The notes beneath the pieces were generated by a model. The model saw only the letters and a list, made by a program, of their open reading frames with translations. It did no database searches and was not told the origin of the DNA. Below, piece by piece: positions 48,474 to 53,570 of a stretch of 53,929 nt of DNA. The position numbers were made by a program, and so were the translations under genes. The DNA is taken from contig MNWP01000040.1 of NCBI GenBank assembly GCA_001872575.1, positions 1 through 53,929 of the forward strand. Reading direction: 5' to 3'. The stretch's first letter is position 1. Each line of letters starts with the position of its first letter. Origin of the DNA: Candidatus Peregrinibacteria bacterium CG1_02_54_53 (GTDB lineage: Bacteria; Patescibacteriota; Gracilibacteria; Peribacterales; Peribacteraceae).

Positions 48474-48501
48474 ATCCTTCGTCTAGCCTATCATAAAACC
48501 C

Positions 48502-49693
48502 ATGCGCAATCATAACGACACGCCCCCCCCCCAACATTCGGGAAGACCTGTTCTCTGCGTACTACTCTGCACGCAGAAACAAACGCTCTACCTACAATGC
48601 TTTGGCGTTTGAAATCGAGTACGAGAAGAATCTTCTGAACCTCTGCGAAGAGATCATAAGCGGAACGTACTGCTTACGGCCCAGCACCTGCTTCATTTCC
48701 TTCCATCCTGTCATCCGGGAGGTATTCGCCGCAGATTTCCGTGACAGGGTCGTCCATCACCTCGTCTACAGCTACATCAACCCATACTTCGAAAAGCTGT
48801 TCATCGCGGACAGCTACAGCTGCCGCCCGGGAAAGGGCACGTCTTACGGCATCAGGCGACTCGGCCATTTCATCCGTTCATGTTCGCAGAACTACACGCG
48901 CGACTGCTACATCCTGAAGCTGGACATCAGAGGCTACTTCATGGCGATAGACCGCGCTCTCCTGTACCGCAAAATCGAGAGTGCTCTCGGCCGCTTCCGG
49001 GACGAAATGCGTTTCGACGAGGAACTTGTCATGCGCCTTCTGCGCCTCATCATCTTCAGTGATCCAACAAAGGATTGCATCGTCAGGGGGAGCAGACATG
49101 ACTGGAGACACCTCCCGAGAACAAAGAGCCTGTTTCACGCCGCGCAAGGCAAGGGGCTCCCCATCGGCAACCTGACGTCCCAGCTCTTCGGCAACGTGTA
49201 CCTCAACGACTTTGATCATTTCGTGAAACAGAAACTGCGATGCCGGTTCTACGGCCGTTACGTCGATGACTTCGTGATCGTCCATGAGAACAGGGAATAC
49301 TTGCGATCCCTCGTTCCTTCGATCAGAGACGAGCTCATGACGACGCTCTCGCTCGAACTGCACCCGGACAAGATCTATCTCCAGCATTATACGAAGGGAG
49401 TGCGGTTCCTGGGAACGGTTATCAAGCCGCATCGCACGTATGTTCACAGCAGAACGAAAAACGGTTTCTTTGGAGCGATCGATCGGTGGAACACCATCTT
49501 CGCAAAGAATGGCGGCGCATTCTCTCCAGAGGAAAGCGAGTGCTTCACAGCATGTATGAATTCGTATCTCGGAATGCTCAGGCACTACAGCACCTACAAG
49601 CTGCGCCGCAAAATGCTGATGAAAGTGCTCGACCCGCGCCTGCGGTGTCGAAGCAAGATCGCGCCGGATTACACGAAAATCTCTCTGCCTTGA
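48502..49693 (+). CDS. DGR-type reverse transcriptase (frame interrupted at a poly-C tract)
   Basis: The uninterrupted frame runs from about 48497 to 49693 and contains RT motifs: RDRVVHHLVYSYINP, DSYSCRPGKGTSYG, LKLDIRGYFMAID (catalytic Asp), GLPIGNLTSQLFGNVYLNDF with the GxxxSQ signature of DGR enzymes, and the catalytic YVDD at 49259-49270, then HPDKIYLQHYTKGVRFLGT. The conserved N-terminal part (NIREDLFSAYYSARRNKR, from 48533) has no ATG/GTG/TTG in frame; the first usable codon in frame is TTG 48602, which would lose it. The ATG at 48502, with TATCAT ending 7 nt upstream, is one base out of frame across a run of ten Cs. Nine Cs would give an intact protein of about 397 residues. Confidence 0.9.
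48523..48532 (+). repeat. Poly-C tract (10 C) inside the RT 5' coding region
   Basis: Ten consecutive Cs, seven codons after the likely ATG. With ten Cs the ATG frame ends at a stop at about 48610; with nine (or twelve) it joins the RT frame. Such tracts slip during replication and can switch genes on and off; an assembly or sequencing error is the other explanation. Confidence 0.85.
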
Positions 49694-49755: not shown

Positions 49756-49944
49756 CAGTCCTTTAGGCAACGGATGGAAAAGCCGTTCGCCTTGCTGTTG
49801 GTATTGCGGTTGACCGTGGCGTTGCCGGAATTCAGATTCCGGTTCCATGCCGACGAGCCGGACTCCAGCGACGACCAGAAGTTGCCGTTGGAGCCGAGAT
49901 TGTTGAAGGAACCGTCCGTATTGCGGTTGCCAGCTAGCAGGCCT
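49756..49944 (-). repeat. DGR template repeat (TR), 189 bp
   Basis: Same length as, and directly alignable to, 52465-52653 (VR). Counted by eye, 18 positions differ and all 18 are T on the plus strand, i.e. A in the minus-strand (RNA) sense; no difference falls on C, G or T of the TR sense strand. Read in the VR frame, TR has Asn (AAC/AAT) at the variable codons. This is the adenine-specific signature of DGR mutagenic retrohoming. Confidence 0.95.
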
Positions 49945-50149: not shown

Positions 50150-50503
50150 TTGTATATGATGACGCAGTTTCACGACGATTTGAAAGCCAAAATGGATGAA
50201 TATGTGCATTTTGTTTACAGATGCACAAAAACATTCCCGAAAGAGGAATTATACGGAGTAACATCCCAACTGAGACGGGCGGCGCTTTCCATCATTCTCA
50301 ACTACATTGAGGGATACGCGCGTTGCAGGGATAAGATTCACAGAAATTTCTTGGAGATCTCGTACGGCTCATTGAAGGAATCCAAATATCTTCTTCACTT
50401 TTCGCTTGTGGAAAATTATTTGCAGCAAGCTGATTATGAAAGAGCCATGAAGCTGGCCGAAGAGATCGGAGCTATGCTCTGGGGCATGCTCAGAAAAATG
50501 TAG
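50150..50503 (+). CDS. Four-helix-bundle protein (23S rRNA IVP/S23 family)
   Basis: 117 residues, entirely helical by pattern: HDDLKAKMDEYVHFVYRCTK, LYGVTSQLRRAALSIILNYIEGYAR (the family hallmark, helix 2), HRNFLEISYGSLKESKYLLHF, DYERAMKLAEEIGAMLWGML. These proteins were first found as ORFs in intervening sequences of 23S rRNA genes and share their fold with the DGR accessory protein Avd. It is on the opposite strand to the better Avd match next door. Perfect CTTGAAACTTGAAACTT inverted repeats hug both ends of the gene, suggesting a small mobile cassette. The start may be the second or third Met (MYMMTQF). Confidence 0.85.
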   Translation: MYMMTQFHDDLKAKMDEYVHFVYRCTKTFPKEELYGVTSQLRRAALSIILNYIEGYARCRDKIHRNFLEISYGSLKESKYLLHFSLVENYLQQADYERAMKLAEEIGAMLWGMLRKM

Positions 50504-50504
50504 T

Positions 50505-50540
50505 GCTTCAAGTTTCAAGTTTCAAGCTTTAAGCTTCAAG
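50505..50540 (-). repeat. Right inverted repeat flanking the four-helix-bundle gene
   Basis: CTTCAAGTTTCAAGTTTCAAG followed by CTTTAAGCTTCAAG, starting 2 bp after the stop. It is the inverted counterpart of 50111-50145 and reaches into the stop region of the avd gene on the other strand. Confidence 0.72.
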
Positions 50541-50877
50541 GGGCCGACCGTTGCCACGCCGTGAGTTGTTTCGAGACGGATTCGATGAGTCCGTTCAGGC
50601 GCACGAATTTTTCAAGGTCGATCTGCCGGAGATCCTTGCAGAGCCGTATATACAGACGGATGGTTTCCGCGTTCTCCCGCGCCGCCTGGATCAGCGCCCC
50701 CTTGGCGCGGCTGCTGTTCGCCCTGTAAATGTTGCGGATCATTTCTATCGCTTCGTTCTTGATGCTCTCGCCGAGCGTGAACTTGTACTCCCTGCTGAAA
50801 TTCTTCACGAAGCGGAATAGTTCGACGAGCAGATCGTAGCTCGTTTTGTACACGGGAAGGTGATCGTAGGTGGCCAT
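50536..50877 (-). CDS. avd: DGR accessory variability determinant, Avd-like
   Basis: 113 residues, four helices. The text matches the DGR-associated Avd pattern: MATYDHLPVYKTSYDLLVEL, then FTLGESIKNEAIEMIRNIYRANSS, then ALIQAARENAETIRLYIRLCKDLRQI, then a final helix ending in a Trp (QLTAWQRS). Avd forms a basic pentamer that binds RT and the TR RNA and is needed for mutagenic cDNA synthesis in the Bordetella phage DGR. It is encoded on the same strand as TR and the target, opposite to RT, separated from TR by the IVP-type cassette. Lys/Arg content is high as expected for nucleic-acid binding. Confidence 0.87.
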   Translation of the reverse strand: MATYDHLPVYKTSYDLLVELFRFVKNFSREYKFTLGESIKNEAIEMIRNIYRANSSRAKGALIQAARENAETIRLYIRLCKDLRQIDLEKFVRLNGLIESVSKQLTAWQRSAP

Positions 50878-50905: not shown

Positions 50906-51217
50906 TCAGACTTCAACGCCTGTTCTCTCAATCTCTCGGGCAAGCGTGAAAAAGGGGCGTGAAAAATCCTCCGGATGGAGCGTCACGGTCTCAATCTTCA
51001 TGTCAATTTCTTTGCTCGCCAGAAAAATATCAACATTCTCTTCCATTTGCGATGAAAGAAACGGCGCAGTGACGACAGCAACATCAATATCACTGTCTTT
51101 GTGCGCGATCCCTTTTGCCACAGAACCGTAGAGAAACACCTGCTGGACGGGATACCCGCGCTGCAGGAGATGCTGTTTGAATTGCCGTGCAATACTGAGT
51201 CCTTCTTCCTGCTTCAT
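50906..51217 (-). CDS. Minimal nucleotidyltransferase (MNT), HEPN partner
   Basis: 103 residues from MKQEEGLSIA. Pol-beta-type fold with FLYGSVAKGIAHKDSDIDVAVV (about 28-49): the GS and DxD metal residues are intact. It overlaps the HEPN gene upstream by 4 bp (ATGA). HEPN-MNT pairs often act as toxin-antitoxin systems in which MNT AMPylates and silences the HEPN RNase. The longer in-frame start at 51259 would overlap HEPN by 46 bp and is not favoured. Confidence 0.88.
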   Translation of the reverse strand: MKQEEGLSIARQFKQHLLQRGYPVQQVFLYGSVAKGIAHKDSDIDVAVVTAPFLSSQMEENVDIFLASKEIDMKIETVTLHPEDFSRPFFTLAREIERTGVEV

Positions 51218-51591
51218 GGTAAAAGAAAGGAAAGGAAATCCTGCGTGGCAGCAATCCATCGTGCACTGTTTTCTTCCGTCGCCTCCGCTTTAGCCCAATC
51301 GGGATCATCATAGCGGGCGGCAACTGCGTACTGCGTCAGGTAACCGAGTTGCTCCTCCTCTACTTTTGTCCATTGCCGCCTCAAGCTCTTCGCGATAAGG
51401 AAAAGATCATGCACAGGAGGCGCCTCTTCACGACGTTCATCCATGTACTGCGCTTTCAAAGCCTTCTCAACTGCGAGATGGCAATTGAAAAGTGCGTGCG
51501 CGTAGTGTCCGTCTTCGTGCGTGAGCTTCGCGACTTGAAGAGACTCTTCCGCGCGCATACGCCAGTGCCTGATGACATCGTCTTCGGTCAC
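51214..51591 (-). CDS. HEPN domain protein
   Basis: 125 residues from a GTG at 51591, chosen because a perfect TATAAT ends exactly 6 nt before it and the conserved sequence starts there (VTEDDVIRHWRMRAEESLQ); an upstream ATG (51663) adds 24 unrelated residues. Helical HEPN fold with HALFNCHLAVEKALKA (about 34-50) and a VAARYDDPDW segment. A strict RX4-6H RNase motif is not obvious, though VHDLFLIAK and ARYDD regions fit this HEPN subgroup. Coupled to MNT downstream. Likely toxin half of a toxin-antitoxin pair; the activity is unproven. Confidence 0.82.
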   Translation of the reverse strand: MTEDDVIRHWRMRAEESLQVAKLTHEDGHYAHALFNCHLAVEKALKAQYMDERREEAPPVHDLFLIAKSLRRQWTKVEEEQLGYLTQYAVAARYDDPDWAKAEATEENSARWIAATQDFLSFLLP

Positions 51592-51643
51592 AGTAGGATT
51601 ATAGCACAGCAACTGATTTGAACACCCAATAAACCTATTCATT

Positions 51644-51682
51644 TCAGACTCCTTCGTCATCAAGCAGACGCGCGTTCTTCAT
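51644..51682 (-). pseudogene. Remnant of a second HEPN (DUF86-type) gene
   Basis: A 12-codon frame (MKNARLLDDEGV, stop) overlapping the MNT stop at 51679 by 4 bp in the ATGA style usual for MNT-HEPN pairs. The normal partner of this MNT type is a DUF86 HEPN protein of about 110 residues starting with a similar MK-N-R-L pattern, so this looks like its truncated 5' end, cut where the next HEPN-MNT unit begins. Confidence 0.45.
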
Positions 51683-51969
51683 AGGGAGATCGCGGAATGG
51701 AAGATTTCATTTCTGATGAGTGGATGAACCCTCTTGTCGGAAACAACGTCAACGTCGCACCCCAGAAATTCGCGCAGATCAGAAACAAGACCGCCCCGGT
51801 CGAAGAGAGTCGTCCCCTTGCGAAATGCCATCAGGAAGTCAATGTCGCTCGCCTCGTTTTCCTCACCGCGCGCCACGGAACCAAACACGCGAACATTGTA
51901 ACCTCCTCTCCTGCTCGCGAGGGTAAGGATCTGCTCCCTGTTCTCTTTGAGGAATTGTAGTCGCGGCAT
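51679..51969 (-). CDS. MNT-type nucleotidyltransferase (orphaned antitoxin)
   Basis: 96 residues from MPRLQFLKENREQIL; an earlier in-frame Met at 51993 adds eight residues. Nucleotidyltransferase fold with VRVFGSVARGEENEASDIDFLM (about 27-48; GSx..DxD intact) and a C-terminal DVDVVSDK strand with the third Asp. Its expected HEPN partner is reduced to 12 codons. Without a toxin it may be a relic or may act on the neighbouring HEPN. Confidence 0.87.
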   Translation of the reverse strand: MPRLQFLKENREQILTLASRRGGYNVRVFGSVARGEENEASDIDFLMAFRKGTTLFDRGGLVSDLREFLGCDVDVVSDKRVHPLIRNEIFHSAISL

Positions 51970-52030
51970 GCTGTCAGCATACCGCAAAACCATGATCGGC
52001 GCAGCAAAAAATTTGTCGCGGACGAAATAG

Positions 52031-52386: not shown

Positions 52387-52464
52387 ACCCCGTGAGATAT
52401 CCTCAGTTTTTCCTCAACAGACCTGTATGCATGTTCTCTTTCACATTGCGCTATCTCACGGGGT
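52387..52464. repeat. Inverted repeat abutting the variable repeat
   Basis: ACCCCGTGAGATA (52387-52399) and TATCTCACGGGGT (52452-52464) pair perfectly over 13 bp with a loop of about 52 nt. The inner arm ends at the stop codon of the DGR target, next to VR. Inverted repeats just behind VR assist target recognition in known DGRs; here it belongs to the GIY-YIG cassette family, so a DGR role is only possible. Confidence 0.7.
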
Positions 52465-53282
52465 CAGTCCTTGAGGCAACGGATGGAAAAGCCGTACGCC
52501 TTGCTGTAGGTACCGCGGTAGACCGTGGCGTTGCCGGAATACAGACTCCGGCCCCAGGCCGACGAGCCGGACTCCAGCGACGACCAGAAGTGGCCGTTGG
52601 AGCCGAGACCGCTGAAGGAACCGTCCGTATCGCGGTAGCCAGCCAGCAGGCCTTCGAACCCGGACGCGCCGTTCTGTTTGAGGCTCGTCCCCTCATTGGT
52701 GCCCCTCCATCCGGTCGTGGAGGTATCGTACGGGAAATCGGTTGTGCAGGTGCCGGAGGTGCAGACCGCGCGCTCCAGCGCCACGTATTCGTAATGCGAG
52801 GGGATGTGCCAGCCGTCGGGGCAGATTCCCCGCACCGGAGAGGCGCAGGCGGGGCTGCCCTCGCCCGTGCCGTTGCAGGAAGAGGAGTAATCCATCGCCT
52901 CGTCCCACTGGTACAGGCCTCCGTAGGTGGTGCAGTTGGCGTCGGAGTCGGAGTAACAGTATTTCTCTACTGTCCCGTTGTTCGTCTGATTGCCGCTGCC
53001 GTTCACGCGCGTACCGTAATTCAGATTCTTCGCCATCCAGCACTGGGTGCCGATGAGGACTGTCGTGTACGCCGTTCCATCCCTGTAATCGGTAAAGCTG
53101 TCGCCGCAGTTCCACACGGCGAGTTTCACCTGTCCTGCCGTCGTGTCCACATTGAGCTGGTAACTCTGTGAGATTTTGGATGTATCGGCGAATGTGTCGG
53201 AAATCTGGCTCGCGGCAATGGCAATGCCCGCGATGCCGAGGGCAGAGGCGACAGCGATCAAGACGGCTGGGCGTTTCTTCAT
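52464..53282 (-). CDS. DGR target: secreted FISUMP-domain protein with C-terminal variable region
   Basis: 272 residues from MKKRPAVLIAVAS; upstream in-frame sequence is repeat DNA. Signal/anchor helix (about 5-25). The body is a Fibrobacter major paralogous (FISUMP) domain of C-type-lectin-like character: IGTQCWMAKNLNYGTRV, YGGLYQWDEAM, GICPDGWHIPSHYEYVALE. The last 62 residues (GLLAGYRDTDGSF to the stop) are the VR; relative to TR, Tyr, Asp, Ser, Gly or His replace Asn at 12 sites, on the exposed lectin-type surface expected to bind ligand. Cys-rich, probably disulfide-bonded. A PilA-like N-terminus is an alternative reading of the first helix. Confidence 0.92.
   Translation of the reverse strand: MKKRPAVLIAVASALGIAGIAIAASQISDTFADTSKISQSYQLNVDTTAGQVKLAVWNCGDSFTDYRDGTAYTTVLIGTQCWMAKNLNYGTRVNGSGNQTNNGTVEKYCYSDSDANCTTYGGLYQWDEAMDYSSSCNGTGEGSPACASPVRGICPDGWHIPSHYEYVALERAVCTSGTCTTDFPYDTSTTGWRGTNEGTSLKQNGASGFEGLLAGYRDTDGSFSGLGSNGHFWSSLESGSSAWGRSLYSGNATVYRGTYSKAYGFSIRCLKD
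52465..52653 (-). repeat. DGR variable repeat (VR), 189 bp
   Basis: Aligns without gaps to TR (49756-49944). 18 substitutions, all at TR adenines: 15 change 12 Asn codons (to Tyr x5, Gly x3, Ser x2, Asp, His) and three are silent. Two Asn codons in GSNG and SGNAT are unchanged. Homology ends at the same base on both sides (GCAGGCCT inner edge, CAGTCCT outer edge). Confidence 0.95.
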
Positions 53283-53570
53283 GGCACGTATGATACCACG
53301 AATGAAGTTCTTGGGGTCAAGAAGCTGAAGTACTGTAAAAGAACGGCTGGAAATCGCCCCACAGCACCACTCGCTTCGCTCGGGTGCGAGGCAGGCCGAA
53401 ACCGTACAGGCAGTCAGCGGGCGGCGGCTGATTTTGCTACGCGCCCCCGCAGCCGCCACCCGAAAGATCCGTTCGAATTTTTTCGTACAGGGACGACCAT
53501 TCGGCGCTTCGCGTCTCATGGCAAGCCATCAGGGATTCGAGTCCAGCTCGCCCTGAGGCGGAATTGAAGG

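Follow-up and report, generated by a model that had tools for sequence, protein, structure and literature searches.

The run of ten cytosines (C10) in the leader of the DGR reverse transcriptase (RT) gene described here very probably acts as a contingency-locus switch, and slipped-strand phase variation is the best explanation of its sequence. The window, meaning the whole 53,929-nt stretch analysed, corresponds to contig C20 of a genome (labelled G000) that totals 1.37 Mb over 42 contigs. In the mechanism proposed, replication slippage would alter the number of Cs, slippage within the population being inferred. Whenever the C count is divisible by three, ATG 48502 would read into the RT and the DGR could rewrite the variable repeat (VR) of its FISUMP target; at other counts, translation would stop after a short peptide and mutagenesis would be off, the loss of RT activity again being an inference. 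The assembled copy would represent the OFF state. Many DGR RTs of the same class, taken here as the Peribacteria/Gracilibacteria portion of Patescibacteria, appear to work in this way too, through different repeat units and also at two further RT loops, and comparison among them, in the absence of read data, indicated with high probability that DGR RTs of this class are phase-variable. The first-pass annotation had suggested that slippage switches mutagenesis on and off; that suggestion gained support from comparison, not from reads, through other slippable repeats in congeners and the class, frame flips and purifying selection.

The RT frame was open from the TAA at 48494-48496 through to its stop at 49693, and a scan for ATG, GTG and TTG starts within it found TTG 48602 only, as the first-pass annotation had stated. 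The conserved N-terminus begins at about 48542, and the segment ahead of TTG 48602 (EDLFSAYYSARRNKRSTYNA) was likewise confirmed as the conserved start of DGR RTs: of about 40 homologues nearly all aligned with it, the majority having an ATG approximately 5-20 codons farther upstream, and it also matched the solved reverse transcriptase 8ub7 from residue 16 on (E=1e-33). ATG 48502, the only ATG that is well placed, lies one base out of frame, and with C10 as assembled it yields a peptide of 36 residues before a stop. According to the reading frames downstream of the tract, this ATG is joined to the RT in one continuous protein by nine Cs, as by any C count divisible by three, and the earlier placement of the shift at the ten-C run was correct, as was that of the TATCAT hexamer. 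Read as a -10 element, the hexamer offers only weak evidence for a nearly leaderless mRNA. C/G runs of at least nine occurred only twice in the genome, that of the RT included, and the probability of such a run landing within 120 nt of the RT start by chance was about 2e-4. The sole other run, a C10 at G000:C17:14729-14738 (L071), immediately preceded the ATG start of a small membrane protein that appeared GlsB/YeaQ-like by eye.

Table 1. Features of the window, with corresponding repeats and VR footprints in related loci
Feature	Position	Strand	Basis or detail
TATCAT, -10-like hexamer, 7 nt upstream of ATG 48502	48489..48494	+	Sequence
ATG proposed as RT start, with leader codons MRNHNDT	48502..48522	+	RT out of frame as assembled
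C10 tract, proposed slippage switch	48523..48532	+	Sequence; one of two C/G runs of at least 9 in genome
DGR RT frame (RVT_1; GLPIGNLTSQ motif; YVDD)	48533..49693	+	Profile, motif and structure matches
TTG, sole in-frame canonical start of RT	48602..48604	+	Conserved N-terminus lost if used
DGR template repeat (TR), 189 nt	49756..49944	-	18/18 TR/VR mismatches at TR adenines
Four-helix-bundle protein (PF05635/TIGR02436), Avd-like	50150..50503	+	Profile matches
bAvd-like protein	50536..50877	-	PF22296 above cut-off; NCBIfam Avd model match below its cut-off
Diversified target, FISUMP/Fib_succ_major-domain protein	52464..53519	-	Profile matches
VR, 3' end of target gene	52465..52653	-	TR/VR comparison
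Leader site			C10 window; (CT)16 G003; (GA)22 G004; (GA)20 G069; (GA)14 G011; G12 in G341; G9 in two G285 genes
M1, before motif A	Between GLLGAIER..FLK and W.CDVKKFFDSVD		(AC/CA)7-21: G256, G257, G258, G270, G271, G272, G277, G288, G302; (CT)18: G285; C8: G298
M2, before motif B	Before RGI.[IL]GN.TSQ		(GA)7-12: G020, G026, G059; (CA)7-17: G282 (two genes), G288
TR/VR mismatches at adenines, RT out of frame			G000 18/18; G258 22/22; G271 16/16; G272 17/19; G277 18/19; G282 13/13; G288 25/25 and 23/23; G020 17/17; G069 21/22
Poly-C at avd 3' end	L084 1091-1100; L106 2826-2835; L208 2694-2702; L089 574-581

The identity of the window element as a DGR was supported on three counts, namely its RT motif, adenine-specific TR/VR differences and an Avd-like protein, with mutagenic retrohoming inferred from sequence footprints only. 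The DGR-clade motif (I/V/L)GxxxSQ is present as GLPIGNLTSQ in P0001, and the best solved structure match of the RT was 8ub7, the RT of the BPP-1 DGR. TR and VR differed at 18 of 189 positions while the assembled RT was out of frame; the restriction of changes to adenines, with no others, indicated that the VR was rewritten recently despite that frame. Both Avd-like genes lie near the TR, and the RT is encoded on the strand opposite to TR and VR. A HEPN gene (50906-51663) and an MNT-type nucleotidyltransferase gene (51679-51993), likely a toxin-antitoxin arrangement, adjoin the DGR.

A close RT was present in two of the four other genomes of the genus (G003 and G004), and in both a dinucleotide repeat stood in the leader, directly before the conserved core. 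The ATG of the G004 RT was in frame; in G003 the ATG adjoining the tract was out of frame and another, about 28 nt upstream, was in frame, leaving its state ambiguous. These were the only (CT/GA)n tracts with n of at least 8 in the five genus genomes. Across 74 family genomes (89 Mb) there were 17 such tracts, six of them in DGR RT genes (leader: G003, G004, G069, G011; before motif B: G020, G059), which make up about 0.04% of family DNA (P about 1e-16). C runs of at least nine were found a few at a time in many family genomes, C10 being far commoner than long dinucleotide tracts, a point against the switch. The first-pass annotation had proposed looking for a poly-C at the same place in homologous RTs: the poly-C itself was not conserved, whereas slippability at that place was, with other repeats in its stead.

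The remaining family (CT)n tracts fell within or beside genes for fibre-like secreted proteins, a glycosyltransferase gene and genes of sensor-like type. Contingency loci are usually of these kinds, and slippage switches therefore seem to operate at other loci of the lineage as well. In G007 (L132, L133, L134), three (CT)13-22 tracts fell where the signal peptides of secreted, fibre- or collar-like proteins are encoded, and one contig ended within a tract. Further (CT)n tracts in or near glycosyltransferase-like, surface-type, HAMP-type and PAS-type proteins, so described by eye, were seen in L139 (G057), L141 (G069), L142 (G072) and L138 (G035) and are candidate contingency loci. A poly-C at the 3' end of avd, adjoining the TR, occurred in DGRs without an RT repeat (C9-10 in G039, G047 and G034; C8 in G041) and is perhaps a second kind of switch. 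At about 1455-1460 of L084, the RT and avd starts overlap on opposite strands at a common CATG.

Throughout the class, which includes lineages with RT frames running through many TGA codons, many of the RTs with halves in different frames proved to carry a repeat at the break. The repeat-bearing RTs numbered 25, with eight repeats in the leader, 11 at M1 and six at M2. The fraction of RTs with repeats was not relied on, as frame-broken loci had been collected first; whole-genome tract counts are without that bias in what they count. In 25 genomes of other families (ca. 28 Mb), selected as holding RT hits, all 11 (AC/GT)n tracts with n of at least 9 were in DGR RTs (10 RT genes). At one and the same site the repeat unit differed between RTs, so that the encoded peptides differed (PPP, SLSL, RERE, THTH, GGG), yet the DNA was always slippable. 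M1 and M2 were gaps in the alignment to 8ub7, i.e., length-tolerant loops. In a tree of RT C-terminal halves, M1 RTs formed one clade, the unit nevertheless changing (AC, CT, C), with approximately three changes for M2 and two for the leader, some forks being poorly supported. It is likely from this tree that repeats in the RT arose several times.

Frame state in relatives behaved as slippage would predict. In one genus, the in-frame RT of G270 and the out-of-frame RT of G271 differed in length at the site by one AC unit only; between genera, G004 (in frame) and G069 (out of frame), which share the leader, differed there by two GA units only. Internal breaks were -1 in eight RTs and +1 in five, and in-frame copies also existed, which is the pattern predicted by random slippage. 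Four of the 23 classifiable RTs were in frame and 19 were out of frame, one third in frame being expected; with 23 RTs this excess of OFF alleles was not significant (P 0.08), and it could reflect either a mostly OFF state or the decay of some RTs. Values of dN/dS in relatives (window RT excluded) were 0.05-0.13 on both sides of the repeats and, for G271 against G272, different species that are both out of frame, 0.06 and 0.095 for the two RT halves. These estimates imply that both sides are under purifying selection in relatives, even between out-of-frame copies. Two criteria for a simple-sequence contingency locus were satisfied, a slippable tract that sets the frame and, in the relatives, a gene maintained by selection despite OFF frames. 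Most of the MAGs probably come from short reads, and assemblies of that kind can get tract lengths wrong. The G256 RT was split by a contig break, with C33 and C47 (L186, L187) both ending at the (GT) repeat; this is compatible with mixed tract lengths in one population, the third criterion, which could have ended the contigs there.

MutS was absent from all eight repeat-bearing family genomes tested, the window genome among them, and from the tested repeat-bearing genomes of families f1, f27 and f34. It was present in the (AC) families f25, f26 and f30, which ruled out missing mismatch repair as a general cause. Outside the class, 53 DGR RT loci from viruses, other phyla and other Patescibacteria had no long dinucleotide tract, and their only repeats were an A9 upstream and, in Moranbacteria (L034), an in-frame G9; repeats as a general property of all DGR RTs were ruled out by these loci. 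The ATG of a Bacteroidales DGR RT (L004, 1949) was out of frame, the break falling at an A-run that is longer by one base in the relatives L005 and L008.

An error of sequencing or assembly, by which the true tract would be nine Cs and the window RT always on, is rather unlikely but the likeliest of the alternatives: homopolymers are the commonest site of miscounts, a single base joins the frames, and the VR was recently diversified. It leaves unexplained why congeners have other kinds of repeat at this position, why such repeats also occupy two RT loops throughout the class and why they are so concentrated in RTs, and a true C9 would be the ON allele of the same slippable tract, so that only the phase shown would change. 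A recent pseudogene, frameshifted and decaying, would agree with most repeat-bearing RTs being out of frame and with the G065 RT, which is broken at two points of its frame and probably dead. Schillinger et al. (2012; PMC3521204) judged DGR RTs that had a frameshift alongside clean VRs to be very recent inactivations or sequencing errors. This explanation was considered very improbable, as the breaks sit at repeats, purifying selection acts on both halves when out-of-frame copies from different species are compared, and VR changes fall almost only at adenines.

Restoration of the frame at expression was judged quite improbable. Homopolymers can cause transcriptional slippage, and non-standard in-frame starts (ATC, ATA, ATT, CTG) exist upstream of the conserved core, so that slippage at transcription, a programmed frameshift or initiation at a rare codon, TTG 48602 included, could be envisaged. 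However, dinucleotide repeats and shifts in both directions do not fit one programmed event, and a programmed frameshift was ruled out by those directions; another start could not bypass the internal tracts, and conserved residues would be lost with TTG 48602. Selection on the repeat peptide as an Arg-Glu, Thr-His or Pro linker, not on slippage of the DNA, is scarcely credible: (GA)n does encode Arg-Glu in every frame and the internal sites correspond to loops whose length varies by comparison with 8ub7, but different units at the same site give unrelated peptides, and the protein would be lost in out-of-frame copies.

With phase variation as the preferred reading, the element combines two known systems. 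It shares a DGR-type RT, adenine-only TR/VR differences, Avd-like proteins and a FISUMP-domain target with DGRs of the Bordetella BPP-1 type and of CPR/Patescibacteria (Roux et al. 2021; PMC8144416), and the RT strand opposite to TR and VR with "inverted" DGRs (PMC3521204); unlike known DGRs, it has a slippable repeat inside the RT reading frame. Simple-sequence contingency loci, such as the CT repeat of Helicobacter pylori oipA (PMC10564699) and the poly-C of Streptococcus mga (PMC10330708), likewise carry a tract in the coding frame whose repeat number sets the frame. Those loci switch a surface protein or a regulator, whereas the gene switched here would encode the enzyme by which a surface-type protein is mutated; one random switch would thus control a second diversity generator. 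Roux et al. treated DGR activity without frameshifts or phase variation (PMC8144416), and a literature search, with most subscription papers outside its coverage, returned no report tying DGR RT expression to repeat-length switching. The layer of control that the first-pass annotation thought undescribed apparently remains so, no earlier description having been found.

Little is known of how cellular DGRs are switched or of what keeps DGRs from destroying useful variants. The benefit of the proposed switch is inferred to be bet-hedging between exploring new variants and keeping a good VR. It is probable that targeted hypermutation is phase-variable in this class, through repeats that have arisen several times at three RT sites, and that a minority of cells would mutate the surface-type target while the rest keep the proven variant, a two-layer form of bet-hedging. 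If this is true, tract lengths in reads should be counted whenever DGR activity is surveyed, and many of the DGR RTs that look "broken" in databases may represent OFF alleles, not pseudogenes; a DGR-rich lineage would possess a heritable, reversible on/off state of mutagenesis set by one repeat.
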